The position numbers and the translations under genes are program-made. The notes beneath the pieces were generated by a model. The model saw only the letters and a program-made list of their open reading frames with translations, had not been told where the DNA came from and did no database searches. 64,000 nucleotides of DNA from Peristeroidobacter agariperforans (lineage in GTDB: Bacteria > Pseudomonadota > Gammaproteobacteria > Steroidobacterales > Steroidobacteraceae): NCBI RefSeq assembly GCF_004138335.1, contig NZ_RYFW01000002.1:1283501-1347500 (forward strand), written 5' to 3'. Positions within the stretch are counted from its first letter, which is position 1, and each line of letters starts with the position of its first letter. Positions 20,153 to 49,324 of the stretch are shown one piece after another.

Positions 20153-20197
20153 AGTCCATCCTTCGGGCCGGGACGGCAAATTATGGCCGACGCCGCG

Positions 20198-20227
20198 CTC
20201 ATGAAAATCATGAGTCGCGAATCATGA
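20198..20227. promoter_or_regulatory. TCATGA repeat cluster in the kinase/pqqA intergenic region
   Basis: CTCATGA-AAA-TCATGAG (20198-20214) is a perfect 7-3-7 inverted repeat. A third TCATGA occurs at 20222-20227, and AATCATGA is directly repeated at 20206 and 20220. It lies about 90 bases before pqqA and 45 bases before the kinase start. This is a candidate operator for the adjacent NarL-type regulator, by pattern and position only. Confidence 0.45.
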
Positions 20228-20271
20228 TTGTCGCGTGGCGGCGGAGGGCGGGATGGCGTCATGGTGCGGCT

Positions 20272-20288
20272 GGGACTCTTTTAGTCCC
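20272..20288 (+). other. Hairpin in pqqA leader
   Basis: GGGACT (20272-20277) pairs with AGTCCC (20283-20288) around CTTTT. It ends four bases before the AAGGAG ribosome-binding site of pqqA, so it could influence ribosome access or mRNA stability. Confidence 0.45.
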
Positions 20289-20302
20289 TACAAGGAGTCA
20301 CC

Positions 20303-20377
20303 ATGATTTGGGAAACCCCTGTGGCCATCGATCTGCGTCTGGGCATGGAAATCACCATGTATGCCGAGCATCGTTGA
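20303..20377 (+). CDS. pqqA: PQQ precursor peptide PqqA (24 residues)
   Basis: The 24-codon gene encodes the ribosomally made precursor whose Glu and Tyr side chains are fused to give the PQQ skeleton. Glu16 and Tyr20 have the required E-x-x-x-Y spacing (EITMY) at the positions usual for PqqA, and the N-terminus begins MIWETP. AAGGAG at 20292-20297 is an ideal ribosome-binding site 5 bases before the ATG. It is immediately followed by pqqB, C, D and E. PqqD would carry this peptide to PqqE. It is easily missed by gene callers because of its length. Confidence 0.97.
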   Translation: MIWETPVAIDLRLGMEITMYAEHR

Positions 20378-20393
20378 TCGTTGAATGAGGGCG

Positions 20394-20411
20394 GGGCTGC
20401 CGGGGCGGCCC
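20394..20411 (+). other. GC-rich hairpin between pqqA and pqqB
   Basis: GGGCTGCC (20394-20401) can pair with GGCGGCCC (20404-20411) with one wobble; the innermost pairs would open to form the loop. It lies in the 51-base gap between pqqA and pqqB. It may reduce downstream expression relative to pqqA, as is known for stem-loops at this position in other pqq operons. No T-tract follows. Confidence 0.45.
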
Positions 20412-20428
20412 GGAGCCTCGCCTTGCCG

Positions 20429-21337
20429 ATGCACATACGAATTCTAGGCGCTGCCGCGGGCGGTGGCTTTCCTCAATGGAATTGCAACTGCCCGAATTGT
20501 GGGGGTGTGCGTCGGGAGGAGCTGAACGCTCGCCCGCGCACCCAATCATCCATCGCAATCCGCGGCGCGGATGAAACCGCGTGGACGCTGGTCAATGCTT
20601 CGCCGGATATCCTGGCGCAACTGCACGCCAATCCTCAATTGCAGCCGGGCCGCGCCTATCGCGACACCGGCATCCGCAATATTGTCCTGACCGACTCGCA
20701 GATCGACCATACGACTGGCCTGTTGATGCTTCGCGAGGCGACGAAGCCGTGGCCGCTGTGGTGTACCGATAGCGCCTTCGACGATCTGACGACGGCCAAT
20801 CCCATCCTGCAGGTCTTGCAGCGCTACTGCGGCGTGGATCGGCGGCCCATCGATATGGCGGGCGAATGGTTCGCGGTCGAAGGTAGCGAGGACTTGCGTT
20901 GGCAGGCGATCGCATTGCCGGGCAAGCCGCCGCCGTATTCGTCGCGCACCCCGCAGCCGGGCGATGTCATTGGCTTGCTGGTCGAGGATCAGCGCACCGA
21001 GCGGCGGCTGTGTTACGCGCCAGGCGTCGCCAAGATCGATTCGTGGTTGTTCGAGCTGATGTGCAGCTCCCACTGCGTGCTGGTGGACGGCACATTCTGG
21101 ACGGAGGACGAGTTGGTTCGGCTGGGCGTGTCGCACAAGCACGCGGCCGACATGGGGCATCTGTCGCAGACCGGCGGGATGATCAAGTGGCTCGATCGGT
21201 TGCCTGCAACGACGCGCCGCGTCCTGATTCACATCAACAACACCAATCCGATTCTGGTCGAGGACTCGCCAGAGCGCGCGCTGTTGAGCTCGCACAGTAT
21301 CGAAGTGGCGTACGACGGTATGGAGATCGTGCTGTGA
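20429..21337 (+). CDS. pqqB: PqqB, metallo-beta-lactamase-fold PQQ biosynthesis protein
   Basis: About 302 residues starting [24 protein letters not shown], the standard PqqB N-terminus with its Cys cluster. [18 protein letters not shown]-like and [17 protein letters not shown] segments belong to the MBL fold. PqqB hydroxylates the Glu-Tyr derived intermediate late in PQQ formation. A longer frame begins at TTG 20381, but the ATG at 20429 matches family starts. The stop overlaps the pqqC start (GTGA). Confidence 0.96.
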
Positions 21338-22041
21338 GCAGCGAGGTTGCCGCCCCTTGGGACAAGACGCAGTTCGAGCAGCAGCTGCGCGAACAGGGGC
21401 GGGCGTATCACATCTATCACCCGTTCAATGTGATGTTGAACTCGGGCAAGGCGACGCGCGAGCAGATCCAGGGCTGGGTCGCCAATCGCTTCTACTATCA
21501 GATCAGCATCCCGCGCAAGGACGCCGCGATTGTTGCGAACTGTCCGGATAGGGAAGTGCGACGCCGCTGGGTCGAGCGCATTCTGGATCACGACGGGCAT
21601 GGCGACGATCTGGGCGGCATCGAGGCCTGGTTGCGCCTGGCCGAAGCCGTTGGCTTGGAGCGAGCCGAAGTCGAAGGGCTGACTCGCTTGATTCCTGGAG
21701 TGCGCTTCGCCGTCGACGCGTATGTGAATTTCGCCCGTCAGGCGCCGTGGCAGGAAGCGGTGTGCTCATCGCTCACGGAGTTGTTTGCACCGGCCATTCA
21801 CCGCCAACGATTGTCGTCGTGGCCTGAGCACTATCCGTGGATTGAACAGGACGGGCTGCAATACTTTCGCAGCCGCGTCTCGCTGGCACAGCGCGATGTG
21901 AACCATGGGCTCGCGGTGACGCTGGCATATTTCAAGACCCGCGAGCAGCAGCAGCGTGCGCTGCAGGTGTTGAAGTTCAAGCTCGACATCCTGTGGGCTA
22001 TGAACGATGCCATGGCCCAGCACTATGGAGTCCGGTCATGA
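21334..22041 (+). CDS. pqqC: PqqC, pyrroloquinoline-quinone synthase
   Basis: About 235 residues from a GTG overlapping the pqqB stop. The all-helical TENA/THI-4-like fold shows [63 protein letters not shown] and [31 protein letters not shown]. These include the His, Tyr and Arg residues that line the active site in PqqC. It catalyses the final cofactorless ring closure and eight-electron oxidation to PQQ. Family length is 230-255 residues. Confidence 0.96.
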
Positions 22042-22310
22042 GCCAAGCGGACCGCCCCAGCATTCGCCCGGGCATCCGGCTGCAATGGGAAGCCGTGCAG
22101 AACGCGTATGTGCTGCTCTATCCGGAAGGCATGGTGAAGTTGAACACCAGCGCCGCGGAGATCCTGCGCCGTTGCGACGGCATGCGCAGCGTCGACGAGA
22201 TCGTGGCGGACCTGGAGTCGGCGTTCAATCGCAACGGGCTGCAGGGCGAAATCGAACATTTCCTGCAGCTGGCGAGAGCGCAGGGGTGGCTCAGTGCGGC
22301 GGAGTCATGA
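22038..22310 (+). CDS. pqqD: PqqD, PqqA-binding chaperone
   Basis: 90 residues from an ATG overlapping the pqqC stop (ATGA). It has the PqqD winged-helix RiPP recognition fold: [51 protein letters not shown] and a C-terminal helix [11 protein letters not shown]. It binds PqqA and presents it to PqqE. An in-frame ATG 45 bases upstream gives a non-homologous extension inside pqqC and is rejected. Confidence 0.95.
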
Positions 22311-23434
22311 GCGCGGCAGTCACAACATCGCCTGCGATCGGGCCGCCGTTGTGGCTGCTGCTCGAGCTGACCTACCGTTGCCCGCTGCAATGTGTGTTCT
22401 GCTACAACCCGATCGACTTCGCGAAAGTCGAGGATGAACTGACGACCGAAGAATGGATTCGAGTGCTGCGCGAGGCGCGGGCGCTGGGATCCGTGCAGCT
22501 GGGTCTTTCGGGCGGCGAGCCGTTGATGCGTGACGATGTCGAGGCGATCGCGGATGAAGCGCACAGGCTCGGCTACTACACGAACTTGATCACCTCGGGC
22601 GTCGGATTGACGCGAGAGCGGTTGAGCGAGCTGAAGCGGGTGGGGTTGGATCACATCCAGCTGTCGTTTCAGGACTCGACGCGGGAGATGAACGACTTCC
22701 TGTCGCACACTCGAACCTTCGAGCTGAAGAAGCGCTGCGCGGAGTGGATCAAGGAGCGCGGCTATCCGATGGTCGTGAACTGCGTTATCCACCGGCTCAA
22801 TATCGATCATCTCGATACCATCATCGACATGGCCGTACGCATGGGCGCCGATTATCTGGAGCTGGCGAACACTCAATATTATTCGTGGGCGCACTTGAAT
22901 CGTGAGCACCTGTTGCCGTCGCGAGAACAGCTGCAGAACGCAGAGCGGACCATGCTCGCGTGGCGCGAACGGATGAAAGGCAAGATGAAGATCTTCTTCG
23001 TAGTGCCGGATTACTACGAGCAACGGCCGAAGAAATGCGTGAATGGCTGGGGCACGACGCTCGCGACCATTGCGCCGGATGGGACGGCCATGCCCTGCCA
23101 CACGGCGAGGATGCTGCCGGGGTTGAGCTTCCCGAATGTCCGAGAGCGAAGCATGAGGGACATCTGGTTCGATTCCGATGCGTTCAATCGGTTTCGCGGT
23201 TGGGGCTGGATGAAGGAGCCGTGCGCGAGTTGTGAGGAGCGGGAGAAGGATTTCGGCGGGTGTCGCTGCCAGGCATATCTGCTCGCGCACGATGCGGCCG
23301 CGGCGGATCCGGTCTGTTCGAAGAGTCCGCATCATCGGGTGGTCGTCTCGGCGGTCGAGCGCGCGCAAGAAACGAGAGTGCCGGAGGCACCATTGGTGTT
23401 TCGGCGGCCGGAGAACTCGCGCTCGTACTCCTAA
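22307..23434 (+). CDS. pqqE: PqqE, radical SAM PqqA Glu-Tyr cross-linking enzyme
   Basis: 375 residues. The radical SAM motif CPLQCVFC lies in LLLELTYRCPLQCVFCYNP; GLSGGEPLMRDD follows. The C-terminal SPASM domain has the auxiliary-cluster cysteines: KKCVNGWG, AMPCHTARMLPG, EPCASCEEREKDFGGCRCQAYLL and PVCSKSPHH. It forms the carbon-carbon bond between Glu and Tyr of PqqA. The ATG overlaps the pqqD stop (ATGA). The 3' end overlaps the convergent efflux gene by 4 bases, so there is no room for a terminator between them. Confidence 0.96.
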   Translation: MSAAVTTSPAIGPPLWLLLELTYRCPLQCVFCYNPIDFAKVEDELTTEEWIRVLREARALGSVQLGLSGGEPLMRDDVEAIADEAHRLGYYTNLITSGVGLTRERLSELKRVGLDHIQLSFQDSTREMNDFLSHTRTFELKKRCAEWIKERGYPMVVNCVIHRLNIDHLDTIIDMAVRMGADYLELANTQYYSWAHLNREHLLPSREQLQNAERTMLAWRERMKGKMKIFFVVPDYYEQRPKKCVNGWGTTLATIAPDGTAMPCHTARMLPGLSFPNVRERSMRDIWFDSDAFNRFRGWGWMKEPCASCEEREKDFGGCRCQAYLLAHDAAAADPVCSKSPHHRVVVSAVERAQETRVPEAPLVFRRPENSRSYS

Positions 23435-29416: not shown

Positions 29417-31909
29417 TCAGCGCTTCGGTGCTCCGCTGAACGAGAACTTCGCGCCTAACCAATAAGTTCTCGGCGCGCCTGGCGCCAGAAATGTCGAGCC
29501 GAGCAGCGGACGTTCGTCATCGACGATGGGACCATCGAACGGCCGCGCGACGAATTCACCGCTGGCGTTGAAACCAGTCGATCCCAGCTGCGCCCCCGAG
29601 GAGTATTCACGATCGAGCAGGTTGTTGACCTGTGCAAACAACTGCAGCTCTTGCACCGGTCGATATTCCAGCCCCAGATTCAGCACCGTGTAACCGCCGA
29701 TCTCGCCCGGCCCGAGATAGAACGGCGCCTGCGCTTCATGCTCGTTGTTTTCATTGCCTCGCGCATAGGAGCTGCCGATGTTGATCACGTCGAGACTGAG
29801 GGAGACCTGTTCCGTTACATCCCAGCCCGCGAAGGCTTTGAGGATGTGTCGAGGCGTGAGCGGAATGCGGTCGCCCGATTCGACGTCGATGGTGCCTTCG
29901 AAACCCGGGCCTTCCTCGTTGGAGCTGTTGCCTTCGCCGAGCAGTTCTTCGCTGCTTCGATACGTCGCATCCAGATACGTGTAGTTGGCGCCAATGTACA
30001 TTGGGCCGAACTGACTGCTCGCGCCGAGCTCGACGCCTTGGCGGCGGGTCTTGCCGAAGTTCTTGAAGTAGCCGAAGCCCGAGGTGTCGTCGGCAACGAA
30101 AAGAATGTCATCGCGGTTGTCAGCCCGGAACACGCCGATGTTCCAGGCGAGGTGCTTGGCCACCATGCCGCGAGCGCCGACTTCCATGGTGCGTGTGACG
30201 ACTTGGTTGAGCGGTGGATCGCCCGCCATCGCATTCGGCAGTCGGCAGGGATTCTCGGGATCGGCGCAGCCCAGCTCGATGGACGACGGGGCGCGGCTGC
30301 CTTCGGTGTAACCAATGTAGCCTGACAATCCTTCGCTGGGATTGAAGGTCACGCCAATCGCAGGGTTGAAGCGGCTGAATCGATGTTTCGCGGTCAGCGA
30401 GCCCGGATCGCCGGCTGCGGTGATGTTGTCCTCGTTGTCGACGGTCGTGCGGTCATAGCGCCCCGACAAAGTGAGTTGCATCACCCGCGACAGCTCTACG
30501 GTGTCAGTGAAGTAGACGCTGCTCGTGGTCGTGTCGCCATCGAGGTCGACTCGTGAGTCGAAGGCGTCTTCGGATTCCTGGCTGCCGTCGGCGAAGGCGC
30601 CGGGGCCGTCGACTGCTGCGATACCGCGATCGGGCAGCACGTAACCGAACTGCGAGGACTGCTGGAACTTCGCGTCGCTCTTCAGGCCGGACACACCGAC
30701 GATCAGCTGATTGTTCAGCGACGCCAGGGGCGCCGTGAAGGTTGCTTGCAGCGAGACGCCGGCATCGTGCTGCCTGGTGTGAGTCCGGTTGATCAGGCCG
30801 TTGCACTTCTCGTTGGGCTCTTCGTTGGTCAGCGCGTTGGCGACACAGCGCCAGAACGGGAAGGGCGTGTTGGCCTGGGTTTCGCCGCTCGTGGGAAAGC
30901 CTGTGTAGCCCGCTGCCTCGAGCGCTTCGCGTTCGTCGGCGCCCGGCTGGTACAGCGATTCGCCGAGCGAGTCGTCGTTGAGATCGCCGTTGAGGGTGTG
31001 GGTCTGGATGTTCCGATAGTGCGCGTTGCCGGACAGGGCGATGGCGTCGCTCAGCTTGTGCATGACGACCAGGTTGACCAGGTACGATTCATTCTTTGTC
31101 TGGTCGGGCTTGGTGTAGATGCTCTGGTAATCCCGGCTCAGCAGCTGCACATCCTGCAGGCCGTTACCCGTGAGATCGGTGTCGGCATACGAGCCGGTGA
31201 TCGACACATCCGTGGCATCGCTGCGCCAGCCGAGCTTGCCGAAGAACTGACGTGCTCGGGTCGGTGAGTCATCGCGCCAGCCGTCGTCGCGCAACTCGTT
31301 GCCAGTTGCGAACCAGTGCAAGCCGTTCTCCGCGTAAGACGCGGCGCTCACCGCGGCTCGCCGCCGATTGTGCGAGCCGTAGTTCACCTCGACGCCGTAG
31401 CCTGGATAACTGAAGCCATCCTTCGTTTGCAGCGCCAGCGCGCCGCCGAGCGTGTTGGAGCCGAACACCGGATTCGATCCGGGAATCAGCGTCATGCTGG
31501 CCAGCGCCTCCTTGGGCAGCAGATCCCAGCTCACCACGTCGCCGAACGGTTGATTGAGCCGCATGCCGTCGAGGTAGACGGAGAGTCCCTGTGGTGTGCC
31601 GAGCAATGGCGACGCTGTGTAGCCGCGATAGCTCACATCGGGCTGGAGCGAGTTGTTCTGGATGTCGTTGACGTACACGCTGCCGACATGGCGATTCATG
31701 TAGGAGGTGAGATCCAGGGCGTGCGAGCGTTCGATTTGCTTCGAGCTCGCGGTCTGCACGGGAGCCGCGACCCGGTTGCGGTCGACCAGCGAGCCTGCCA
31801 ATGGCGTGACGCCGATGACGGTGACCGTATCGATGATTTCGTCTGCGGATGCCGTCGTGGCCAGCAAGGCGAGCGTGGACCAAGCGGCAGTCGTCGTTGC
31901 CAAACGCAT
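29417..31909 (-). CDS. TonB-dependent outer-membrane receptor
   Basis: 830 residues with a signal peptide (ATTTAAWSTLALLATTASA), a plug domain (SHALDLTSYMNRHVGSVYVNDIQNNSLQPDVSYRGYTASPLLGTPQGLSVYLDGMRLN) and a 22-strand-type barrel ending in YWLGAKFSFSG. No N-terminal signalling (STN) domain is present. It imports a chelate or large solute using TonB energy. It follows the sigma-54 activator by 36 bases with an AAGGGAG ribosome site, so they are probably co-transcribed. In this lanthanide-type xox locus it is a candidate for metal or lanthanophore uptake; the ligand is inference. Confidence 0.92.
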   Translation of the reverse strand: MRLATTTAAWSTLALLATTASADEIIDTVTVIGVTPLAGSLVDRNRVAAPVQTASSKQIERSHALDLTSYMNRHVGSVYVNDIQNNSLQPDVSYRGYTASPLLGTPQGLSVYLDGMRLNQPFGDVVSWDLLPKEALASMTLIPGSNPVFGSNTLGGALALQTKDGFSYPGYGVEVNYGSHNRRRAAVSAASYAENGLHWFATGNELRDDGWRDDSPTRARQFFGKLGWRSDATDVSITGSYADTDLTGNGLQDVQLLSRDYQSIYTKPDQTKNESYLVNLVVMHKLSDAIALSGNAHYRNIQTHTLNGDLNDDSLGESLYQPGADEREALEAAGYTGFPTSGETQANTPFPFWRCVANALTNEEPNEKCNGLINRTHTRQHDAGVSLQATFTAPLASLNNQLIVGVSGLKSDAKFQQSSQFGYVLPDRGIAAVDGPGAFADGSQESEDAFDSRVDLDGDTTTSSVYFTDTVELSRVMQLTLSGRYDRTTVDNEDNITAAGDPGSLTAKHRFSRFNPAIGVTFNPSEGLSGYIGYTEGSRAPSSIELGCADPENPCRLPNAMAGDPPLNQVVTRTMEVGARGMVAKHLAWNIGVFRADNRDDILFVADDTSGFGYFKNFGKTRRQGVELGASSQFGPMYIGANYTYLDATYRSSEELLGEGNSSNEEGPGFEGTIDVESGDRIPLTPRHILKAFAGWDVTEQVSLSLDVINIGSSYARGNENNEHEAQAPFYLGPGEIGGYTVLNLGLEYRPVQELQLFAQVNNLLDREYSSGAQLGSTGFNASGEFVARPFDGPIVDDERPLLGSTFLAPGAPRTYWLGAKFSFSGAPKR

Positions 31910-31945: not shown

Positions 31946-33931
<1,986 letters not shown>

Positions 33932-33962: not shown

Positions 33963-34012
33963 TGTGTCAACTGTGCCGTGACAGTGTCACGGTCTGTATC
34001 GCCCCTGACACA
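33963..34012. promoter_or_regulatory. Palindromic TGTCA/TGACA array, candidate activator binding site
   Basis: CCGTGACA-G-TGTCACGG (33976-33992) is a perfect 17-base palindrome. An outer inverted pair TGTGTCA (33963-33969) and TGACACA (34006-34012) brackets it. The palindrome centre is about 115 bases upstream of the -24 element at 34098, a normal distance for a sigma-54 enhancer. The left outer arm overlaps a TTGACA on the minus strand, so binding could also repress the activator gene itself. No experimental basis. Confidence 0.7.
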
Positions 34013-34097
34013 CTCGCCCGCGGATTGATCGTCCCACCGCATCCAATGCAGTGTCGTCGCTGCCAGCGGTGTTAAGTTTAACCAAGATAGATACCGC

Positions 34098-34113
34098 TGG
34101 CATACGGCGTGCT
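34098..34113 (+). promoter_or_regulatory. Sigma-54 (-24/-12) promoter
   Basis: TGGCATACGGCGTGCT matches the consensus TGGCAC-N5-TTGCW, with GG and GC at the exact 12-base register. Transcription would start near 34124, 25 bases before the beta-propeller start. An enhancer-binding protein gene diverges from the same region. Confidence 0.82.
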
Positions 34114-34148: not shown

Positions 34149-35219
34149 ATGAGGAATGTAGCGCGGCGGCCACTCCTGTTACTGCTAGCTTGCGGTGTAT
34201 GCGGATACATATTCGAGGTCGCCGCAGCGTCCAGCAACGCGGCCACGGCCCGCGCCTATGTTTCCAACGAAGATGGCCAGTCGGTGTCGGTGCTGAACGC
34301 CGAGAGCGGCGCCACGATCGCCACGATCGATGTTGGTAAGCGGCCGCGCGGCTTGAAATTATCGCGTGATGGCTCGCGATTGTTCGTGGCCGTGAGCGGC
34401 TTGCCGAAATGTCCGCCTACGGTGCCCGACGAGGAGTGCGCCAAGCTCGAGCGCGACCTGAAGGCCGACGGGATCGCGGTGGTCGACACCTCGGCGCGCA
34501 AGGTAATCAAAGTGCTGGCCGCCGGTTCCGACCCCGAGCAGTTCGCTATGAGCAACGATGGCAAGCGGCTCTATGTGGCGAATGAAGATGTCGGCCTGCT
34601 GTCGGTGGTCGACGTGGATGCGGGCAAAGTAATCGAGCGCATCAAGGTCGGATTGGAGCCGGAAGGCGTCGCGATGACGCCGAATGGCCGCTGGGTGCTG
34701 GTCACGAACGAGTCGGACAGCTCGGTCTCTGTCATCGATACGGCGACGCTGAAAGTTATCAAGACGGTGCCGGTGGGTAAGCGGCCGCGAGACATGGCAT
34801 TCGCACCCGATGGCAACACCGCTTATGTGTCGGGCGAAATGGACGCCTCCTTGTATAGCATGTCTGTGACCGGCAACGAGCCCGTGCAACGGCTGTTACA
34901 ACTTCGCGAGGCGGCGCGACCGATGGCGGTCGTTCAAGATTCTGCCCGTAAGCGTTTGTATTTGAGCACCGGGCGCGGCGGCACCGTTGCCGTCATCGAT
35001 ATCAAGGATGCGCCTCGAGCGGTGCAGCTGATCAAGGAAGTGCCGGTCGGCAAGCGTCCGTGGGGCATCGCGCTGTCGGCCGATGGGCGGCACTTGTACA
35101 CAGCGAATGGACCGTCGAACGATGTGAGTGTCGTCGATACAACGACGCTGACCGAAGTGAAACGGATTCCCGTGGGCAGCTCGCCCTGGGGCATCGTGCT
35201 CGGCCCCGCGCCGCCTTGA
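34149..35219 (+). CDS. PQQ-associated YVTN-type beta-propeller protein
   Basis: 356 residues with an exported N-terminus (RRPLLLLLACGVCGYIFEVAAA). About seven blades follow the pattern RAYVSNEDGQSVSVLNAESGATIATIDVGKRPRGLKLSRDG. The insert GLPKCPPTVPDEECAKLERDLKADGIAVVDT has two Cys and resembles the PQQ-dependent catabolism-associated propeller family. The function in alcohol oxidation is unknown; a periplasmic scaffold or accessory role is inferred. It is driven by the sigma-54 promoter at 34098. GGAGG precedes the ATG. Confidence 0.9.
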   Translation: MRNVARRPLLLLLACGVCGYIFEVAAASSNAATARAYVSNEDGQSVSVLNAESGATIATIDVGKRPRGLKLSRDGSRLFVAVSGLPKCPPTVPDEECAKLERDLKADGIAVVDTSARKVIKVLAAGSDPEQFAMSNDGKRLYVANEDVGLLSVVDVDAGKVIERIKVGLEPEGVAMTPNGRWVLVTNESDSSVSVIDTATLKVIKTVPVGKRPRDMAFAPDGNTAYVSGEMDASLYSMSVTGNEPVQRLLQLREAARPMAVVQDSARKRLYLSTGRGGTVAVIDIKDAPRAVQLIKEVPVGKRPWGIALSADGRHLYTANGPSNDVSVVDTTTLTEVKRIPVGSSPWGIVLGPAPP

Positions 35220-35228
35220 TCCCTCAGA

Positions 35229-35618
35229 TCATTTGACCTGCAAGCCGCACTCGCGCTGGACCTGCTTCTCCAGCTCGCGAAACCGTTTGGCGGTGGACTT
35301 GGCTTCGTCGGAATCCCGGAACACGGCGCCGCCTTCGCCCGGCAAGCCGGAGTAGCGCGCGAACGTGATCGCGTTGACGAACTCGTCGTAGGTCAGCACG
35401 TCGGCGATGCGATCGATGGTGCACGAGCACTGATAGACGTTCGCCAGGCTGTCGTCGTGTTTCGCGATGCACTCATTCACATACTCGACGCGCGCCTGCG
35501 TCGGGTAGCTGTGCACCGGCCCTTCATCTTCATCGCCGCTTGCCGGGCTGCCGAATATCACCAAAACAATCGCCATGACCCAGAGAGCGGATTGCTGGCA
35601 CAGGCGTTGCATCGTCAT
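35229..35618 (-). CDS. Small secreted Cys-containing protein inside the xox locus
   Basis: 129 residues with a signal peptide (SALWVMAIVLVIFGSPASG). The mature protein has four Cys (VNECIAKH, YQCSCTID, QRECGLQ) that could pair, and a helical region ADVLTYDEFVNAITFARYSG. It is encoded antisense to its neighbours, between the propeller (convergent, 9 bases apart) and xoxF (divergent, 105 bases). I cannot name the family. The location suggests a periplasmic accessory of the alcohol dehydrogenase system. Confidence 0.75.
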   Translation of the reverse strand: MTMQRLCQQSALWVMAIVLVIFGSPASGDEDEGPVHSYPTQARVEYVNECIAKHDDSLANVYQCSCTIDRIADVLTYDEFVNAITFARYSGLPGEGGAVFRDSDEAKSTAKRFRELEKQVQRECGLQVK

Positions 35619-35723: not shown

Positions 35724-37550
35724 ATGAAACGTCAGCATCGCTGGGTCCTGCTGGTGGCTGCCTCGTCCACCGTCACCTTGGCTTCGGCCGCGGACCTCGA
35801 AACTCACATGAGCAAGTCATCCAACTGGGCCGCCCAGGCCGGTGACTATGCGAATCATCGCTACAGTGAACTGAAGCAGATCAACGCCAGCAACGTAGGG
35901 CGCATGCAAGTGGCCTGGACGATGTCCACCGGCGTGCTACGCGGCCACGAGGGCTCGCCGCTGGTGATCGGCGACACGATGTACATCCACACGCCGTTTC
36001 CGAACAACGTGTTCGCGGTCAATCTGAAGGACCAATCCTACAAATGGAAGTATGAGCCCAAGCAGGATGCGTCGGTTGTACCGGTCATGTGCTGTGACAC
36101 TGTCAACCGCGGCCTGGCGTATGGCGACGGCAAGATCCTGTTGCAACAGGCGGACACGACGCTGGTCGCGCTGGATGCAAATTCCGGCAAGGTGGTGTGG
36201 ACCGCGAAGAACGGCGATCCCAAGATCGGCGAGACCAACACCAATGCGCCGCACGTCTTCAAAGACACGGTGATCACCGGTATTTCCGGCGGTGAGTTCG
36301 GTGTGCGCGGGCGCTTGATTGCCTACGACCTGGCCACCGGCAAGAAGAAATGGACAGCCTGGAGCACCGGCCCGGATAAAGAAGTACTGATCGATCCGGC
36401 CAAGACCATGACCTGGACCAACGGCAAGATGGCTCCGGTCGGCGCCGACTCCTCGATCAAATCGTGGAAGGGCGATCAATGGAAGCTGGGCGGCGGCACC
36501 ACCTGGGGCTGGTATGCCTACGATCCGAAGTTGAATCTGGTCTATTACGGCACCGGCAATCCGGGCACGTGGAATCCGTCGCAGCGTCCCGGCGACAACA
36601 AATGGTCGATGACGCTGTTCGCTCGCGATCTGAACACGGGCATGGCGAAGTGGGCCTATCAGATGACGCCGCACGACGAATGGGACTATGACGGCATCAA
36701 CGAGAACCTGCTGGTCGACCTGAACATCAAGGGCAAGACGGTGCCGGCGGTGGTGCACTTCGATCGCAACGGTTTCGGCTACACGTTGAACCGCGAGACC
36801 GGCGAGCTGCTGGTTGCAGAAAAATACGATCCGACGGTGAACTGGGCGAGCAAGGTCGATATGAAGACCGGCCGTCCCGTGGTCGACAAGCGATTCTCGC
36901 CTGGGACCACCGGCCCCGACGTCAATGTGAAAGACATTTGCCCGGCCGCGCTCGGCACCAAGGACCAGCAGCCCGCCAGCTACGATCGCAAGAGCGGTCT
37001 GATCATGGTGCCGACCAATCACGTGTGCATGACGTATGAGCCCTTCCAGGTGGAATACACCGCAGGGCAGCCGTATGTGGGCGCGACGTTGACCATGTAT
37101 CCGACGCCGGGCAGTCACGGCGGCATGGGCAACTTCATCGCGTGGGATGCGGCCCAAGGCAAGATCGTCTGGTCGAAGCCGGAACGTTTCTCGGTCTGGT
37201 CGGGCGCGCTGACGACCGCCGGCGACGTGGTGTTCTACGGCACGCTGGAAGGTTATATCAAGGCGGTCTCGCCGAAGGACGGCAAGGAGCTTTGGAAGTT
37301 CAAGACTCCGTCCGGAATCATCGGCAACGTGTTCACGTATGAGTACGGCGGCAAGCAGTACGTCGGCGTGTATTCCGGCATCGGCGGCTGGGCCGGGATC
37401 GGCATGGCCGCGGGCCTGACCGAATCCACCGAAGGCCTGGGCGCGGTGGGCGGTTACAAGGATCTGGCGAAGTACACGACGCTCGGCGGCTCGCTGTTCA
37501 TCTTCGGGTTGCCAGACAGCACTGGCACGGCCACGACTGCACTGAAATGA
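35724..37550 (+). CDS. xoxF: XoxF-type lanthanide-dependent PQQ methanol dehydrogenase
   Basis: 608 residues with a signal peptide ([16 protein letters not shown]). Key residues: vicinal disulfide Cys123-Cys124 ([10 protein letters not shown]), metal ligands Glu191 ([10 protein letters not shown]) and Asn279 (GTGNP), catalytic Asp321 and the extra Asp323 in DEWDYDG. The extra Asp distinguishes lanthanide enzymes from calcium MxaF, which has Ala there. Tryptophan-docking propeller repeats are present throughout. It oxidises methanol or other short alcohols in the periplasm and passes electrons to cytochrome c. The ATG at 35724 is preferred because it starts the signal peptide; an in-frame ATG exists at 35661. 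The stop overlaps xoxG (ATGA). Confidence 0.96.
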
Positions 37551-37981
37551 GCTCACGGCAAATGGGCTCACTGAAAATGCGGGTAGCGAAGTGGTCGATC
37601 GGGTTTCTGGTTTTGAGTGTCGCCGCGGTGTGCACCAGTGCCAACGACGCACCCGCGGCCGATGCTCTCTACCAGGTGCAGGATGGCAACAAGGTCGATG
37701 AGAAAACATTGAAAGGCTGGAAGACGTGGCGGGCGCTCGCTTGCGAGCGCTGCCACGGGGCCGAACAGGAAGGAATGGTGGGCCCGTCGCTGGTGGAGTC
37801 GCTAAAGAAACTGAGCAAAGAGGACTTCCACACGCTGATCATGAATGGCCGCCCGGAGAAGGGCATGCCGCCGTTCAACACCAGCGCGATGGTGAACGAG
37901 AACTGGGAAGGCCTGTACGCCTACTTGAAAGGTCGCTCCGATGGCAAGATCCAGCCTGGCCGCCTGCAGCCGATGCAATAG
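37547..37981 (+). CDS. xoxG: XoxG-like c-type cytochrome, electron acceptor of XoxF
   Basis: 144 residues. A signal stretch ([17 protein letters not shown]) is followed by one heme-binding CERCH in [22 protein letters not shown] and a probable axial Met in EKGMPPFN. It is a small class I cytochrome c in the periplasm. Its ATG overlaps the xoxF stop, as expected for the dedicated electron acceptor. Later in-frame ATGs at 37562 and 37577 could also be used. Confidence 0.9.
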
Positions 37982-38843
37982 ATTGCGCGTGGGCGCGACC
38001 GGGCTGGCCTGTCTTCTGCTGTCATTCGCCGCAGCGGGCGTCGCTGCGGCGGATCAGTCCGAAACGACGCTCCGCGTCTGCGCCGATCCGGACAACCTGC
38101 CGTTGTCCAATCAGCGCGGCGAGGGCTATGAGAACAAGATCGCCGAAGCGCTGGCGCACGATCTGGGCCGTCAGGTCGAATACACCTTCTTTCCCCAGCG
38201 CATGGGCTTCGTTCGCAATACGTTGCGTTACCGAGACGAGGCCACGCAAAAGTTCAAATGCGATGTGATCATCGGCGTGCCCAAAGGCTACGAGCTCACG
38301 GCCACGACGCGGCCGTATATGCGCTCTACGTATGCGCTGTTAATCGCAGATCCTGGCAAGCAGGGCGAGGTGCAGACCGCCGACGATCTGTTGAAGCTGC
38401 CGCCTGACAAACTATCTTCACTGCGCATCGGCGTCTTCGGGCGCTCGCCGGGCGCGGATTGGTTGCTGCGTCATGGGCTGCTCGAACAAGCTGTCGTGTA
38501 CGCGCCGCAGAGCGGCGACGTGCACGAGAATCCCGCCCACATCATCGAGCGGGATCTGAACGAGAAAAAGATCGACGTCGCCATTCTGTGGGGGCCCATG
38601 GCGGGTTATCTGGTGCAGCGACACACGGCGTCGCCCCGGGCTTCGTCCCAGTGGCGCGCCGTGCCTTTTTTGCCCGACCCGCAGATCCGCTTCGATTTCG
38701 AGATCGCCATGGGCGTGCGCTTTGGCGAAAAACAATGGCAGGGCGTGCTCGACAACTGGATCGGCTCGCACCAGGCCCGGATCGACGAGATCCTGTTGAG
38801 TTATCGCGTGCCGCTGCTCGATGACAGCGGCAAGGTCAAGTAA
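37941..38843 (+). CDS. xoxJ: XoxJ-like periplasmic binding protein of quinoprotein dehydrogenase
   Basis: Up to 300 residues. A signal peptide (VGATGLACLLLSFAAAGVAAA) precedes a substrate-binding-protein fold: TLRVCADPDNLPLSNQRGEGYENKIAEALAHDLGRQVEYTFFPQRMGFVRNTLR, CDVIIGVPKGYELTATTRPYMRSTYAL and IDVAILWGPMAGYLVQ. XoxJ/MxaJ proteins are thought to help assemble or activate the dehydrogenase. The start is uncertain. ATG 37941 overlaps xoxG by 41 bases, and TTG 37983 or GTG 37989 would begin closer to the signal peptide. Confidence 0.9.
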   Translation: MARSSLAACSRCNRLRVGATGLACLLLSFAAAGVAAADQSETTLRVCADPDNLPLSNQRGEGYENKIAEALAHDLGRQVEYTFFPQRMGFVRNTLRYRDEATQKFKCDVIIGVPKGYELTATTRPYMRSTYALLIADPGKQGEVQTADDLLKLPPDKLSSLRIGVFGRSPGADWLLRHGLLEQAVVYAPQSGDVHENPAHIIERDLNEKKIDVAILWGPMAGYLVQRHTASPRASSQWRAVPFLPDPQIRFDFEIAMGVRFGEKQWQGVLDNWIGSHQARIDEILLSYRVPLLDDSGKVK

Positions 38844-38861: not shown

Positions 38862-39971
<1,110 letters not shown>

Positions 39972-40003: not shown

Positions 40004-40582
40004 ATGAGCGCTTTGAAAATTCATCCGTCGGTGGATGGCGGCGTCAAGGCCGGCAGGTCGGGCTTCTCGGGCGGCACTCTGACGTGCCGGTGCAAGGACA
40101 ACCAGGTGACGGTGCAGCTGGCGGGCGACGTCGCTTTCAATCACGTCTGCGGCTGCACCAAGTGCTGGAAGCCGGAGGGCTCGCTGTTCTCGATGGTCGC
40201 GGTCATTCCACGCGACAAGCTGCAAGTCACGGCCAACGCGCAGAAGCTCAAGATCGTCGACGAGTCGGCCGCGATTCAACGCTATGCGTGCACCGGCTGC
40301 GGCGTGCACATGTACGGACGCATCGAAAACAAGAACCATCCGTTCTATGGCTTCGACTTCGTGCACACCGAGCTGTCGAGCGATCAGGGCTGGGCGGCGC
40401 CGGAGTTCGCGGCGTTCGTGTCGTCCATCATCGAGTCAGGCGCGAATCCACAGAACATGGGTGCGGTGCGTGCGCGGCTGAGCGAGTTGGGCCTGGCGCC
40501 TTATGACTGCCTGTCGCCCCCGCTGATGGATCTGATCGCGACTCACACCGCGAAGGCGAAAGGAGTAGTGGCGGCGGCTTGA
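40004..40582 (+). CDS. gfa: Glutathione-dependent formaldehyde-activating enzyme (Gfa)
   Basis: 192 residues. Zinc ligands of the GFA fold are present: [29 protein letters not shown] and [14 protein letters not shown]. It promotes addition of formaldehyde to glutathione, giving the substrate of the preceding dehydrogenase, although the spontaneous reaction also occurs. The C-terminal part [28 protein letters not shown] is typical of Gfa rather than of small GFA-domain proteins. It ends the xox operon and meets a convergent gene two bases later. Confidence 0.93.
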
Positions 40583-44455: not shown

Positions 44456-44567
44456 CGTTATGAAGCGGCGGAAGCATAACAGGTTGTACACGGCGGACGG
44501 GTGTCGGGGAACTCAGACGCCCGACGGCAGATTAGAGGGTTGCCACCGCCGTTCATGGAAAATTGCC

Positions 44568-45422
44568 GTGCCGAAGGGCCAGATCGCGCATCGTCACAAG
44601 GCTTTCTTTATAGGCATTGGCGCCGTTGCGCTGATCCTGGCGGGTGCGGGCGCCGGCGTGGTGCTGTTGTTGTCCGGGGCTTACAGCACCGCCGCCACCA
44701 AGCAGCATTTCGGTATTACATATCGCGTCCTGGAGCTGGGTCTGCGCTATTCCGTAGCCAGCAACGCCGAAGACATCGTGGTGCCCGATCTGCAGCGCGT
44801 GGCCAATGTGAATGTAGGTTATGCATGCTATCGCAAGTATTGCGTGCAGTGTCACGGCGCCCCGGGCGTCGCTCGCGACCCGCTCGGACGTGGACAACTT
44901 CCTTCGCCGAGCAGTTTGTCGGAATCCGCTCGGGATTGGCCGGCCTCGCATCTTTTCTATGTCACGCAGCAGGGCGTGCGCATGTCGGGCATGCCGGCGT
45001 GGGAGTATCGAATATCGAGCGAAGGATTGTGGTCGACGGTGGCGTACTTGAAGGCCATGCCGTTCATGACTGTCGCTCAGCACCGTGAGTTGGATGAGGC
45101 GAGTGCCGATGAAACGTGTCCCGCGCCGACCGCCGCTGCTGCTTACACGCGAGAGCGCACGCAGATCATGTTTCGACAGTACGCATGCGACAACTGTCAC
45201 ATCATTGGTGGCATGGTTGGGCCGAAGACGCACATCGGACCGTCGTTGGTAAACTGGCGAGAGCGCAAGTACATCGCAGGCATCCTGCCCAACACGCGCG
45301 AGAATCTGGTGCGTTGGATCGTTGCCCCGCAGGATCTCAGTCCGCACACCATGATGCCGGATCTCGATGTGATCGAGCCGCACGCCCGGCAGATGGCGCG
45401 CTATTTGATGACGGAAGAATAG
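44568..45422 (+). CDS. Membrane-anchored diheme cytochrome c
   Basis: About 284 residues from GTG 44568 (GGAAAA 8 bases upstream). One N-terminal transmembrane helix (AFFIGIGAVALILAGAGAGVVLLL) is followed by two cytochrome c domains with heme motifs CVQCH and CDNCH. Candidate axial Met residues lie in MSGMPAW and TMMPDL. It is the first gene of a respiratory operon leading to the cytochrome c oxidase subunits, and probably carries electrons to that oxidase. A longer frame begins at 44460 but its N-terminus has no signal character. Confidence 0.88.
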   Translation: MPKGQIAHRHKAFFIGIGAVALILAGAGAGVVLLLSGAYSTAATKQHFGITYRVLELGLRYSVASNAEDIVVPDLQRVANVNVGYACYRKYCVQCHGAPGVARDPLGRGQLPSPSSLSESARDWPASHLFYVTQQGVRMSGMPAWEYRISSEGLWSTVAYLKAMPFMTVAQHRELDEASADETCPAPTAAAAYTRERTQIMFRQYACDNCHIIGGMVGPKTHIGPSLVNWRERKYIAGILPNTRENLVRWIVAPQDLSPHTMMPDLDVIEPHARQMARYLMTEE

Positions 45423-45426
45423 TGAG

Positions 45427-45801
45427 ATGACGCGCACCGGTCGCCCACTCTCTCTGTTGTTGTTGCTACCGCTGCTGTTTGCTTGTGCTCCCGAGCGAGA
45501 CTATGTGCCGAAAGTTGTCGATGGCGACGCGGATCGAGGTCGCGAAGCGCTGGCGCGCTATGAGTGCGGCGTGTGCCATATGATTCCGGGTGTGGCGGAC
45601 GCGCTTGGGAAGGTCGGGCCGGCGCTGGGTGATTACTCACGTCGCTCGTATGTCGCGGGCAAGTTTCCTAACGAGCCGAACACGCTGGTGCGCTGGATCG
45701 TCGATGCTCCGGCGATGGCGCCACAGACCGCGATGCCCGCCATCTCGATGTCGGAGCAGGAAGCTCGTGACATGGCCGCCTATTTATATGAGTCCGACTG
45801 A
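45427..45801 (+). CDS. Small cytochrome c lipoprotein
   Basis: 124 residues. The signal peptide ends in a lipobox-like LLFAC; one heme motif CGVCH lies in ARYECGVCHMIPGVADALGKVGPAL. PAMAPQTAMPAI supplies a likely axial Met. The domain resembles the C-terminal heme domain of the preceding diheme protein (LVRWIV and MP motifs in both), which suggests duplication. It starts four bases after the preceding stop and is two bases before the oxidase subunit II gene. Confidence 0.9.
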   Translation: MTRTGRPLSLLLLLPLLFACAPERDYVPKVVDGDADRGREALARYECGVCHMIPGVADALGKVGPALGDYSRRSYVAGKFPNEPNTLVRWIVDAPAMAPQTAMPAISMSEQEARDMAAYLYESD

Positions 45802-45803
45802 TC

Positions 45804-46805
45804 ATGCGGCCGCCTCATCCTGCGTCGGCCTTGGATCCCGCATCGGGCAGCGGCGCCGAGTTGATCGATCAGCTCGGCACCGCGTTGTATGTGGGCGGCG
45901 GTCTGATCTTCCTGGTGGTGATGGTGCTCGTCACCTGTGCTGTGCTTACGAAGGGAAGGCCGGTCAACGCGCGTTACTGGATCCTTGGTGGCGGCCTCGC
46001 GTTTCCTGCGTTCACGCTGACCGTGCTGCTGATGTACTCGCTAGCCGTCGGCAATGGGTTGAATGCCATCGGATCGAGCGGCGCTCTGCAGTTGTTTCTC
46101 GATTGTTTTGGTCTCGGCGACGCCCGGGCGCGGGCGCCGGTGGACGATGTTCTCGAGATCCACGTGGTCGGCAAGCAATGGTGGTGGGAAGTTCGTTACG
46201 ATCGGCCAGGGAAGGGCGGGGCGGTCGTGCTGGCGAACGAGCTTCGCATGCCGACGAACCAGGCCGTGGAACTGGTGCTTTCGACGACGGATGTGATCCA
46301 CAGCTTCTGGGCGCCGTCGCTGGCAGGCAAGGTGGACATGATTCCTGGTCGCACGACGCGCTTGCGTCTGCAGACCAGCGAGGCAGGAACATTTCGTGCG
46401 CTCTGCGCCGAGTACTGCGGAGGGCAGCATGCGCTGATGGCGCTGTTCGTCGTTACCCAGCATGGGGATGACTTCGAGGCCTGGCTGGCGCATCAACAAA
46501 CATCTGTTGTCGAGCCCGTCGATCCCTTTCTGAAAGTTGGCTATGACGCCTTCTTTCGTGGCGAGTGCCACAGCTGTCACACGGTCAGAGGCACGCCTGC
46601 GAATGGCGTCGCCGGTCCGGATCTGACGCATGTCGGCGGCCGCAAGTCGCTCGCCGCAGGCACGCTCAATAATCACATCGGCACCATGGCCGGTTGGATC
46701 GCCGGCGCCCAGGACGTGAAACCGGGCAACAAGATGCCGTCGTCGCTCGCGTACTCGGGCGTCGAGCTGCGTGCCCTGTCGGCGTGGTTGGGGAGTCTCC
46801 AGTGA
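45804..46805 (+). CDS. ctaC: Cytochrome c oxidase subunit II with C-terminal heme c (caa3-type)
   Basis: 333 residues. Two membrane helices (ALYVGGGLIFLVVMVLVTCAVL and WILGGGLAFPAFTLTVLLMYSLAV) precede the CuA cupredoxin domain: aromatic GKQWWWEVRY, His in VIHSFWAPSLAGKVDMIPGR and the CuA loop CAEYCGGQHALM. A fused cytochrome c domain has CHSCH and a Met in GNKMPSSL. It accepts electrons from soluble or anchored cytochrome c. The ATG is two bases after the previous stop; the stop overlaps the next gene (GTGA). Confidence 0.95.
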   Translation: MRPPHPASALDPASGSGAELIDQLGTALYVGGGLIFLVVMVLVTCAVLTKGRPVNARYWILGGGLAFPAFTLTVLLMYSLAVGNGLNAIGSSGALQLFLDCFGLGDARARAPVDDVLEIHVVGKQWWWEVRYDRPGKGGAVVLANELRMPTNQAVELVLSTTDVIHSFWAPSLAGKVDMIPGRTTRLRLQTSEAGTFRALCAEYCGGQHALMALFVVTQHGDDFEAWLAHQQTSVVEPVDPFLKVGYDAFFRGECHSCHTVRGTPANGVAGPDLTHVGGRKSLAAGTLNNHIGTMAGWIAGAQDVKPGNKMPSSLAYSGVELRALSAWLGSLQ

Positions 46806-49324
46806 GTTTGGACGCGTCCCCTGAGTTGCCGAATTCGCTGCCGCGTCCCACGGGGGAGTTCGATCGACTGCGCGCCGTATGGGAGCGGCCCAAAGGCTGG
46901 CGCGTACTCACGCAAGTCAACAACACGGCGATCGGCCTCTGGTACATCGGCGCCGCGCTGTTGTTTCTCGTGCTCGGCGGCATTCTGGCGCTGATCATGC
47001 GCACTCAGCTGGCGGTGCCGGGGAACAATCTGGTCGATGCCGATCTGTACAACCAGCTGTTCACGATGCACGGCTCGGTGATGATGTTTCTGTTCGCCGT
47101 GCCGGTGGTCGAGGCAATCGGCATTCTGTTGTTGCCCGCGATGCAGGGGGCGCGCGACCTGCCGTTTCCCCGGCTGTCGGCATATGCGTTCTGGGCGTAT
47201 TTCGTCGGCGGGCTGGTGTTCTTCACCACCATCTTCTTCGACCTCGCGCCGGATGGTGGCTGGTTCATGTATCCGCCACTCACCAGCTACGAGTTCTCGC
47301 CCGGGCTGCGCACGGACTTCTGGCTGCTCGGCATCGGGTTCATCGAGATTTCGGCCATCGCCGGTGCGATAGAGATCGTGGTGGGTATCTTGAGAACCCG
47401 GCCGCCGGGCATGACGCTCGACAAGATGCCCATCTACCTGTGGGCGATGCTCATCGTCGGCGCAATGATCATCTTCGGCTTTCCGCCGGTGATTCTAGCC
47501 ACGGCGTTGCTCGAGCTGGAGCGCGCATTCCACTGGCCGTTCTTCCTGGCCGAGCGGGGCGGCGATCCGCTGCTCTGGCAGCACTTGTTCTGGCTGTTCG
47601 GCCATCCGGATGTTTACATCATTTTCCTGCCGGCGGCGGGCCTGGTTTCGATGATGGTCGCGACCATGGCGCAGGTGCCGTTGATTGGATATCGCTGGAT
47701 CGTTGTCGCGATGCTGGCGACGGGGACCATTTCTTTTGCATTGTGGGTGCACCACATGTTTGCGACCGGCATGCCGCACCTGTCGCTGAGTTTCTTTTCG
47801 GCGGCGAGCATGGCCGTGGCGATTCCGGCCGGGCTGCAAGTGTTTTCGTGGATCGCCACGCTGTGGCGAGGCGACGTGCAGCGCGCGACGCCAACTTACT
47901 TTCTGCTCGGTTTCTTCGGTGTGTTCGTGCTGGGTGGATTGACTGGCGTCATGCTCGCGGTCGTGCCTTACGACTGGCAGGCGCATGACACGTACTTCGT
48001 GGTGGCTCACCTGCACTACGTGCTGATCGGCGGCATGTTGTTTCCTGTGTTCGCGGGAATCTATTACTGGGCGCCGATGATCAGTGGCCGCCGTTTGTCG
48101 GAGCGCATGGGGAAGTGGGCCTGCGCCATCATGTTCATCGGCGTGAACCTGACTTTCTTTCCCATGCACATCGCCGGGCTGCTCGGCATGCCACGCCGTG
48201 TCTGGACGTACGCGGATGGCTATGGTCTGGAGCCTTACAACCTGCTCTCGACAGTTGGAGCATTCGTGTTTGCAGCAGGTATAAGCATCGTGCTGTTGGA
48301 TTTGATGTTGCACTTCAGGCCCGCCGGCAAAGTGGACACGAATCCGTGGAACGCGGGCACGCTCGAATGGCTGCCGCAGGATGAGTATGCCATTCGCAGC
48401 GTGCCTCTCGTCGGCAGCCGGGAGCCGCTGTGGGATCGAGCGTCGCTTCGCAAGGAAGTGGACGAAGGTCAGCACTATCTGCCCGGCACGATGACGGGCG
48501 GTCGAGAGACCATCGTCACCAGTGCGATCGATGCTCGACCGGAGTATCTGCTGCGTCTGCCGGGATCGAGTTGGTTGCCGGTGCTCGCTGGCGTCGGCAC
48601 CGCGGTCTTTTTTCTTGCGCTCACCGTCAAATGGATGATCGTCGCGATTACCGGAGCGCTGGTCGCACTGGGCAGCATTCTGATGTGGTTGTGGGACAGC
48701 GATCCTGCGCCGTCGGGACAGCTGTTCGATGTGGGCGGCGGGCTGAGCTTGCCGGATTACATGAGCGGCAGCCGCTCGCATTCGTGGTGGTCGATGGTCG
48801 TGCTGATGCTCGTGGATGGCAGCATCTTCGCCTGTTTGATCTTTTCATTCCTTTATTTATGGACGGTGACGTTGTCCGGCTTTCCCCCGGAGAGTCTCGA
48901 TATGCCGCTGGTGGGAAGCTCCGTGGCGGCGGTGGTCGCTTGGCTTGTCGTCGCTGGGGCGTTGTTTGCGGCGAATCGGGCGCTGGGTGGGAGTCGGTGC
49001 CGCGGCGTGAGCATCGCGCTGCTGGTTGCGCTGATGGGAACCTGGCTGGCATTTGCAGCGAGCCTGCATGCGCTGACGGGAACGAACCTTCGCCCGCAGT
49101 TGCACGGCTATGCATCGACTGCTTACACGATGGTTGCCTGGCAAGGACTTCACGCTGTGTTGCTGACGTTGATGATCGGCTTCACCGTGGCGCGACTGTC
49201 GCTCGGGATGATCGATTCTGTGCGTCGAAATGTTTTCGATAACACCCGCATCATGAGCTATTACTGCGCGGCGCAGGGCATTGTCGCGCTGGTGGTGATG
49301 CACTCGCCTCGGCTGGCCCTTTGA
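46802..49324 (+). CDS. ctaD: Cytochrome c oxidase subunit I fused to a subunit III-like domain
   Basis: About 840 residues from a GTG overlapping the subunit II stop. Subunit I features occupy about 1-560: heme a ligand region MHGSVMMFLFAVP, CuB His motif FGHPDVYI, HHMFATGM and HDTYFVVAHLHYV. After a linker and two hydrophobic helices, a shorter subunit III-like part begins near 655 (SRSHSWWSMVVLMLVDGSIFACLIFSFLYLWTV) and continues for five helices. The oxidase reduces oxygen to water and pumps protons in the inner membrane. The subunit III half is shorter than a free subunit III. Confidence 0.94.
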   Translation: MSLDASPELPNSLPRPTGEFDRLRAVWERPKGWRVLTQVNNTAIGLWYIGAALLFLVLGGILALIMRTQLAVPGNNLVDADLYNQLFTMHGSVMMFLFAVPVVEAIGILLLPAMQGARDLPFPRLSAYAFWAYFVGGLVFFTTIFFDLAPDGGWFMYPPLTSYEFSPGLRTDFWLLGIGFIEISAIAGAIEIVVGILRTRPPGMTLDKMPIYLWAMLIVGAMIIFGFPPVILATALLELERAFHWPFFLAERGGDPLLWQHLFWLFGHPDVYIIFLPAAGLVSMMVATMAQVPLIGYRWIVVAMLATGTISFALWVHHMFATGMPHLSLSFFSAASMAVAIPAGLQVFSWIATLWRGDVQRATPTYFLLGFFGVFVLGGLTGVMLAVVPYDWQAHDTYFVVAHLHYVLIGGMLFPVFAGIYYWAPMISGRRLSERMGKWACAIMFIGVNLTFFPMHIAGLLGMPRRVWTYADGYGLEPYNLLSTVGAFVFAAGISIVLLDLMLHFRPAGKVDTNPWNAGTLEWLPQDEYAIRSVPLVGSREPLWDRASLRKEVDEGQHYLPGTMTGGRETIVTSAIDARPEYLLRLPGSSWLPVLAGVGTAVFFLALTVKWMIVAITGALVALGSILMWLWDSDPAPSGQLFDVGGGLSLPDYMSGSRSHSWWSMVVLMLVDGSIFACLIFSFLYLWTVTLSGFPPESLDMPLVGSSVAAVVAWLVVAGALFAANRALGGSRCRGVSIALLVALMGTWLAFAASLHALTGTNLRPQLHGYASTAYTMVAWQGLHAVLLTLMIGFTVARLSLGMIDSVRRNVFDNTRIMSYYCAAQGIVALVVMHSPRLAL

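Follow-up and report, generated by a model that had tools for sequence, protein, structure and literature searches.

The window, i.e., the whole stretch of 64,000 nucleotides of DNA analysed here, from the soil bacterium Peristeroidobacter agariperforans, contains a gene for a σ54-dependent activator, a divergent gene for a PQQ-associated β-propeller protein and, behind the latter on the same strand, a group of genes for the oxidation of methanol and formaldehyde. Two candidate σ54 promoters and an enhancer-type block accompany them, the features of interest being the following:

31946..33931, minus strand: AcoR/DhaR-type σ54 activator
33963..33969, plus strand: TGTGTCA, left arm of the compound enhancer
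33976..33992, no strand: 17-base palindrome CCGTGACAGTGTCACGG, with the 15-base core CGTGACA-N-TGTCACG
33995..34012, no strand: 18-base dyad TGTATCG-CCCC-TGACACA, which includes the right arm TGACACA (34006-34012); best candidate activator site
34098..34113, plus strand: σ54 promoter (-24/-12) of the propeller gene, by pattern match and weighted consensus
34149..35219, plus strand: PQQ-associated β-propeller protein (248 bits for TIGR03866, whose cut-off is 287; TIGR02276 repeats above cut-off)
35596..35611, plus strand: σ54 promoter (-24/-12) of xoxF, TGGCACAGGCGTTGCA, a strict match with the full consensus
35724..37550, plus strand: xoxF, lanthanide-type methanol dehydrogenase
37547..37981, plus strand: xoxG-like cytochrome c (PF13442; TIGR03874 below cut-off)
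37941..38843, plus strand: xoxJ-like periplasmic binding protein (TIGR03871 above cut-off)
38862..39971, plus strand: flhA, S-(hydroxymethyl)glutathione dehydrogenase (TIGR02818 above cut-off)
40004..40582, plus strand: gfa, S-(hydroxymethyl)glutathione synthase (TIGR02820 above cut-off)

The original prediction had described the gene divergent from the propeller gene as a GAFTGA-containing activator, and its product indeed combines an AAA+ domain (PF00158, 217.5 bits), with GAFTGA present in the translation, a Fis-type HTH (PF02954, 50.8 bits) and, in the N-terminal sensing region, a GAF domain (PF01590, residues 77-216). A response-regulator domain is absent from its Pfam matches, and this architecture fits the one-component class of σ54 enhancer-binding proteins. 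The label “AcoR-type” refers here to domain architecture only and not to a subfamily assignment; the DhaR model aligns with residues 31-655 at 292.8 bits, short of the subfamily cut-off of 551, and the AcoR model is absent from the curated NCBIfam matches of the protein. AcoR itself senses acetoin. The longest ORF of the gene begins at 34042 and would span the palindrome, but the start at 33931 is favoured, since the stretch between start codon and enhancer differs in length among loci; this places the enhancer block (33963-34012) 32 to 81 bases before the start codon. The activator gene is adjoined by a gene for a TonB-dependent receptor (29417-31909, minus strand), possibly involved in the uptake of PQQ or lanthanides, and a relative with 33% identity likewise lies beside the activator gene in Dyella (L250). 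The genome gives one match for rpoN.

The product of 35724-37550 (queried from 35721, one codon early) has XoxF structures as its best matches, contains a WDYDG motif, which we take to provide the extra aspartate of the lanthanide site, and is encoded next to XoxJ-like and cytochrome genes, so that its assignment to XoxF appears warranted at the sequence level. Among the 4 candidates scored out of 26 in the genome, XoxF matches only itself at E ≤ 1e-150. Five PQQ dehydrogenases of the genome lie above the family cut-off, and the other four, together with the next-best candidate, share 28-33% identity with XoxF; no MxaF-like partner was thus seen among the dehydrogenases compared. A search of the genome for MxaI gave zero matches, as did its control. 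No σ54 promoter of its own was found for flhA in the window, which is in keeping with an operon. Elsewhere in the window, pqqA (20303-20377), pqqB, pqqC and pqqE lie within 18177-23434, beside a histidine kinase and a LuxR-type regulator (18177-20179), and none of the four best-scoring σ54 sites of the window is upstream of them. A few kb past the xox unit, 44460-49324 holds cytochrome c genes along with genes for subunits II and I of a cytochrome oxidase, which may form an electron acceptor route.

In front of the propeller gene, as had been proposed, TGGCATACGGCGTGCT (34098-34113) carries GG at -24, GC at -12 and the intact spacing of 10. The term “exact” initially given to this promoter is slightly generous, as its -12 box reads GTGC instead of TTGC. 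A weighted consensus ranks 35596 first in the window (24.2 of 24.2) and 34098 second (23.5), and both display the GG, the GC, the spacing of 10 and near-consensus boxes expected of a σ54 promoter. Regarding its conservation, 11 of the 16 positions of the 34098 site are invariant in five loci of the same genus (window included). The site is present in L112-L116, none was found before the propeller gene in L117, and in L118-L121 a divergent strict -24/-12 site beside the activator gene precedes another gene in place of the propeller gene.

Upstream of this promoter, the palindrome sits between TGTGTCA and TGACACA, with its centre 114 bases before 34098, in agreement with the prediction of a 17-base palindrome inside such arms at about 115 bases. 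The whole block (33963-34012) is invariant at 43 of 50 positions in the same five loci, where the corresponding numbers are 16 of 31 between activator start and enhancer, 44 of 85 between enhancer and promoter, and 5 of 35 between promoter and propeller ATG (the relaxed dyad score of this conservation analysis was defined once the site of the window was known). In the palindrome core, 14 of 15 positions are invariant, the exception being the centre base, and in the 33995-34012 dyad 17 of 18. The TGTGTCA arm, suggested beforehand as a feature to look for in orthologous loci, was found in L112-L116, and in L117-L121 the enhancer is reduced to a theme of TGTNNCA stretches plus a GACANTGTC-like core.

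Which part of this block would the activator recognize? The dyad at 33995-34012 starts 103 bases before 34098, and none of 200 shuffles was as good, a test whose dyad form was defined after an earlier result had been seen. The share of shuffles was 0 for the equivalent dyad in L113 and 0.005 in L114 and L115, and that of L116, with one extra spacer base, did not pass (0.355). Moreover, a matrix derived from eight dyads found in other activator clades ranked 33995-34012 third among 63,983 positions of the window. This argues against the 17-base palindrome as the sole enhancer and indicates that the block is probably compound: the prediction of an enhancer-type element stands, but what the dyads of other clades match is TGTATCG-CCCC-TGACACA and not the palindrome.

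A second σ54 site, at 35596, was absent from the original prediction and constitutes the stronger evidence. It lies 128 bases before the xoxF ATG (35724) and is kept in all nine loci of the activator clade to which the window belongs (clade A, one genus, window included), reading TGGCACAGGCGTTGCA in five of them and TGGCATA[AC]G[CG][AG]TTGCA in four, with surroundings that differ widely between both sets. The fact that xoxF has its own site, stronger and more conserved, ties σ54 directly to it. In L118 (6165-6175) and L121 (12054-12064), the σ54 site is followed, ahead of the start codon of xoxF, by a palindrome GATGTGTCATC that might be a downstream activator site.

The 35596 site is contained in the initial codons of a small gene on the opposite strand (35229-35618, minus strand). 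Its product looks secreted, has a CxC core and lacks Pfam and NCBIfam matches; relatives are encoded no more than 420 bases from xoxF in 22 loci, with another in Paraburkholderia (L034), and it represents an unnamed xox-associated family. In a rival reading, for which this overlap speaks, the -24/-12 matches and the palindrome would be products of chance or of coding sequence. The two strict matches in the window (0.35 expected) are indeed reached by 6 of 100 shuffles, and GTGACANTGTCAC occurs once in the 7.65-Mb genome, just as its reversed-pattern control does. However, in L183, L184 and L185, xoxF relatives with no activator in the compared stretch (as far as contig ends allow), the best score within 350 bases is only 16.5-18.2, and in L183 and L184, where the small gene begins with other residues, it amounts to 17.0 and 16.5, which argues against 35596 being mere coding sequence. 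Besides, the same type of promoter precedes xoxF in L127, L131, L133, L134, L142, L217, L218 and L250, where no small gene of this kind was found beside it; in L250 (Dyella ginsengisoli LA-4) the strict site is located about 107 bases ahead of xoxF. An origin by chance or from coding sequence is hence extremely improbable in our judgement. The retention in nine of nine clade-A loci within varied surroundings, together with the contrast to L183 and L184, points to selection on a σ54 promoter rather than on the start of the small gene.

If σ54 promoters and AcoR-type activators function together at xoxF, they would be expected to co-occur in other loci. The comparison comprised 65 xoxF-type genes, taken from 40 activator neighbourhoods, 46 xoxF neighbourhoods and the loci L079 and L250, after excluding L135 (upstream region lost at a contig end), L032 (same locus as L250) and those genes with less than 42% identity to the XoxF of the window, a start after residue 80, fewer than 230 aligned residues or less than 200 bases upstream. 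A strict site within 350 bases upstream was present in 18 of the 23 genes for which an AcoR-type activator lies at 10 kb or less versus 2 of the 42 “unlinked” genes, i.e., those with no activator in the compared stretch, and in none of the 19 unlinked ones covered for at least 5 kb on both sides. The 20 site-bearing genes score 23.5-24.2, and the remaining ones at most 20.7. Fisher's test gives p values of 1e-9 (all genes) and 1e-7 (restricted set), both treating related rows as independent. On the XoxF tree, a descent-aware test yielded 8 independent pairs, of which 4.3 agreed with the association, none contradicted it and 3.7 were undecided (median p 0.125), so that the association, allowing for descent, is not significant, with too few pairs. 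The linked genes devoid of a strict site are those of L136, L138, L144, L228 and L196 (in the latter, the activator is 8 kb off), and the unlinked ones with a site are those of L219 and L205. L219 may be a split linked locus, given that its sequence breaks off 2 kb from xoxF and that activator, gfa and flhA lie together on another contig of that genome (L143).

The same holds for flhA when it heads its own unit (no other query gene within 400 bases upstream on the same strand): a strict site precedes it in 7 of 10 linked loci (all except L136, L138 and L250) and in none of 3 unlinked ones. The remaining 14 flhA genes, most of them downstream of xoxJ or gfa, are devoid of one. Clades B and C of the activator tree, moreover, have TGTnnCA-N4-TGnnACA dyads that begin 100-148 bases upstream of the σ54 sites of xoxF (L127, L131, L133, L134, L142, L217, L218) and of flhA (L127, L130, L131, L142, L143, L217, L218), and 13 of these 14 dyads are reached by less than 5% of 200 shuffles, the exception being that of flhA in L143 (0.06). 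L079 has a strict xoxF site and no clear dyad (0.385). The proposed link of σ54 and an AcoR-like activator to the xox locus is therefore strengthened by a recurrent pairing of activators and promoters, although it was incomplete in missing the site of xoxF itself.

The activator's domains, the conserved enhancer and promoters and the recurrent pairing with xoxF or flhA and their σ54 sites, all read from the sequences, support a model in which the one-component activator probably drives both the propeller gene and xoxF-xoxG-xoxJ-flhA-gfa from two σ54 promoters by means of the enhancer at 33963-34012. The activator would sense a signal in the cytoplasm that stems from alcohol or C1 metabolism, most likely methanol or formaldehyde judging by the target genes, and would bind to the compound enhancer. 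The σ54 polymerase would then be opened at 34098 for the propeller gene and at 35596 for the putative xox operon, whose products would convert methanol to formaldehyde and the latter to formate. This implies that the enhancer acts on the xoxF promoter from 1.6 kb away, and its position before the activator start codon would allow the control of the activator's own gene, too.

That distance is a weak point of the model, since no activator-type dyad was detected near the xoxF promoter of the window, either by the shuffle test or with the other-clade matrix, and the other clade-A xoxF promoters have no convincing one nearby (shares of shuffles 0.055-0.96). Both promoters might then be real and the adjacent activator might be confined to its own gene and the propeller promoter, with a different σ54 activator opening xoxF. 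The genome offers candidates for the latter, as the activator has at least five additional matches there at E ≤ 1e-60 (six in all, with 8 of 30 candidates scored). Nonetheless, clades B and C place activator-type dyads before xoxF itself, and the strict xoxF site tracks the presence of an AcoR-type activator, which makes this division of labour unlikely and favours the adjacent activator as regulator of both units.

How old is the pairing? In a tree of 73 activators with more than 560 aligned residues (shorter or broken ones left out), 31 are linked, 23 near xoxF and 8 near flhA or gfa only. Of them, 29 fall into four clades with a support of 100 each and unlinked activators in between: clade A (the one of the window, 9 loci of one genus), clade B (Dyella L032 plus six others), clade C (Nevskia L079 plus seven others) and clade D (L136-L140). 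The “unlinked” label changes 6 times on this tree versus 23.8 in shuffles, and the XoxF partners of the activator clades fall in different parts of the XoxF tree. Given these interspersed clades, the pairing may have had several origins, and repeated recruitment of the activator to xoxF would be the simplest reading of the trees, although a single origin with later losses may also account for them. In clade D, neither of the two xoxF genes has a σ54 site. Beside the gene for the full-length activator, each of its five loci also carries a second one whose similarity (about 56-61% identity) is limited to the AAA+ and HTH part, the sensing half being absent.

Among 369 genomes sampled from the class, 25 have an activator match at E ≤ 1e-110. 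The 28 activator neighbourhoods outside the genus, several of them on short contigs, include no xoxF of at least 42% identity and one flhA-gfa (L261), so linkage seems confined to certain lineages. Another set of 80 loci contains such a xoxF in two cases (L032 and L079), and in L056, of the same set, there is an flhA of at least 60% identity plus a distant PQQ dehydrogenase. Some sister activators are likewise found near more distant PQQ dehydrogenases (30-40% identity), and alcohol oxidation may thus be the older theme.

The described control of lanthanide-type dehydrogenases is of another kind. According to PMC6115532, MxaF/XoxF and PedE/PedH are controlled by the two-component systems MxcQE, MxbDM, MxaY and PedS2/PedR2, in line with the earlier remark that XoxF systems are described with two-component or lanthanide-switch control. 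These systems share with the present one the transcriptional control of lanthanide-type alcohol dehydrogenases, but consist, as described there, of kinase/regulator pairs and an inverse partner enzyme, unlike the one-component activator and σ54 sites of the window, where no MxaF-like partner is seen. By analogy with that published control, xoxF could be mainly under a two-component system and another promoter, leaving the σ54 sites a minor role; the kinase/LuxR pair at 18177-20179 would be a candidate, as it adjoins pqqA and pqqB, though not xox. Yet a perfect and conserved -24/-12 site precedes xoxF, regulators of the LuxR type lack the AAA+ domain needed at σ54 promoters, and no MxaF-like partner for a lanthanide switch was seen, the PQQ dehydrogenases compared being at most 33% identical to XoxF. 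All this renders the two-component option very unlikely and leaves the one-component activator as the preferred regulator.

Other known systems come closer in one respect or another. AcoR/DhaR-type activators share the GAF, AAA+ and Fis HTH domains, the divergent target gene and the upstream dyad, and differ from the present one in its targets, genes for the oxidation of methanol and formaldehyde, and in its DhaR score, which stays below the cut-off. MmoR, a GAF-containing σ54 activator described for soluble methane monooxygenase (PMC5874634), also belongs to C1 metabolism, but targets that monooxygenase and not a methanol dehydrogenase. By the title of a paper cited in PMC6115532 (J Bacteriol 199:e00035-17), a quinoprotein alcohol dehydrogenase of Azospirillum brasilense is likewise a PQQ enzyme under σ54, although it is glycerol-induced and involves a LuxR-type regulator instead of xoxF and an AcoR-type activator. 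In Methylosinus sporium 5, according to PMC12403871, an RpoN motif is found at nitrogen genes, and RpoD promoters prevail before methane and central carbon genes. No report of σ54 or AcoR-type control of xoxF appeared among the literature matches listed (including PMC6540204), a set with subscription papers mostly outside its scope.

To our knowledge, little is known about the timing control of XoxF in bacteria without an evident MxaF, and the described cases are two-component switches. Here the positions of a single activator gene, a single enhancer and two promoters are known, which makes this question directly testable. That the arrangement recurs in Steroidobacteraceae, Dyella and Nevskia suggests that this route has been taken repeatedly, and we tentatively propose, as an idea with nearly even chances, that AcoR-type activators were recruited several times independently for xoxF and glutathione-dependent formaldehyde oxidation via σ54 promoters, as cytoplasmic methanol or formaldehyde sensors that would dispense with a lanthanide-sensing kinase. 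The activator of the window could itself serve as such a methanol or formaldehyde sensor.
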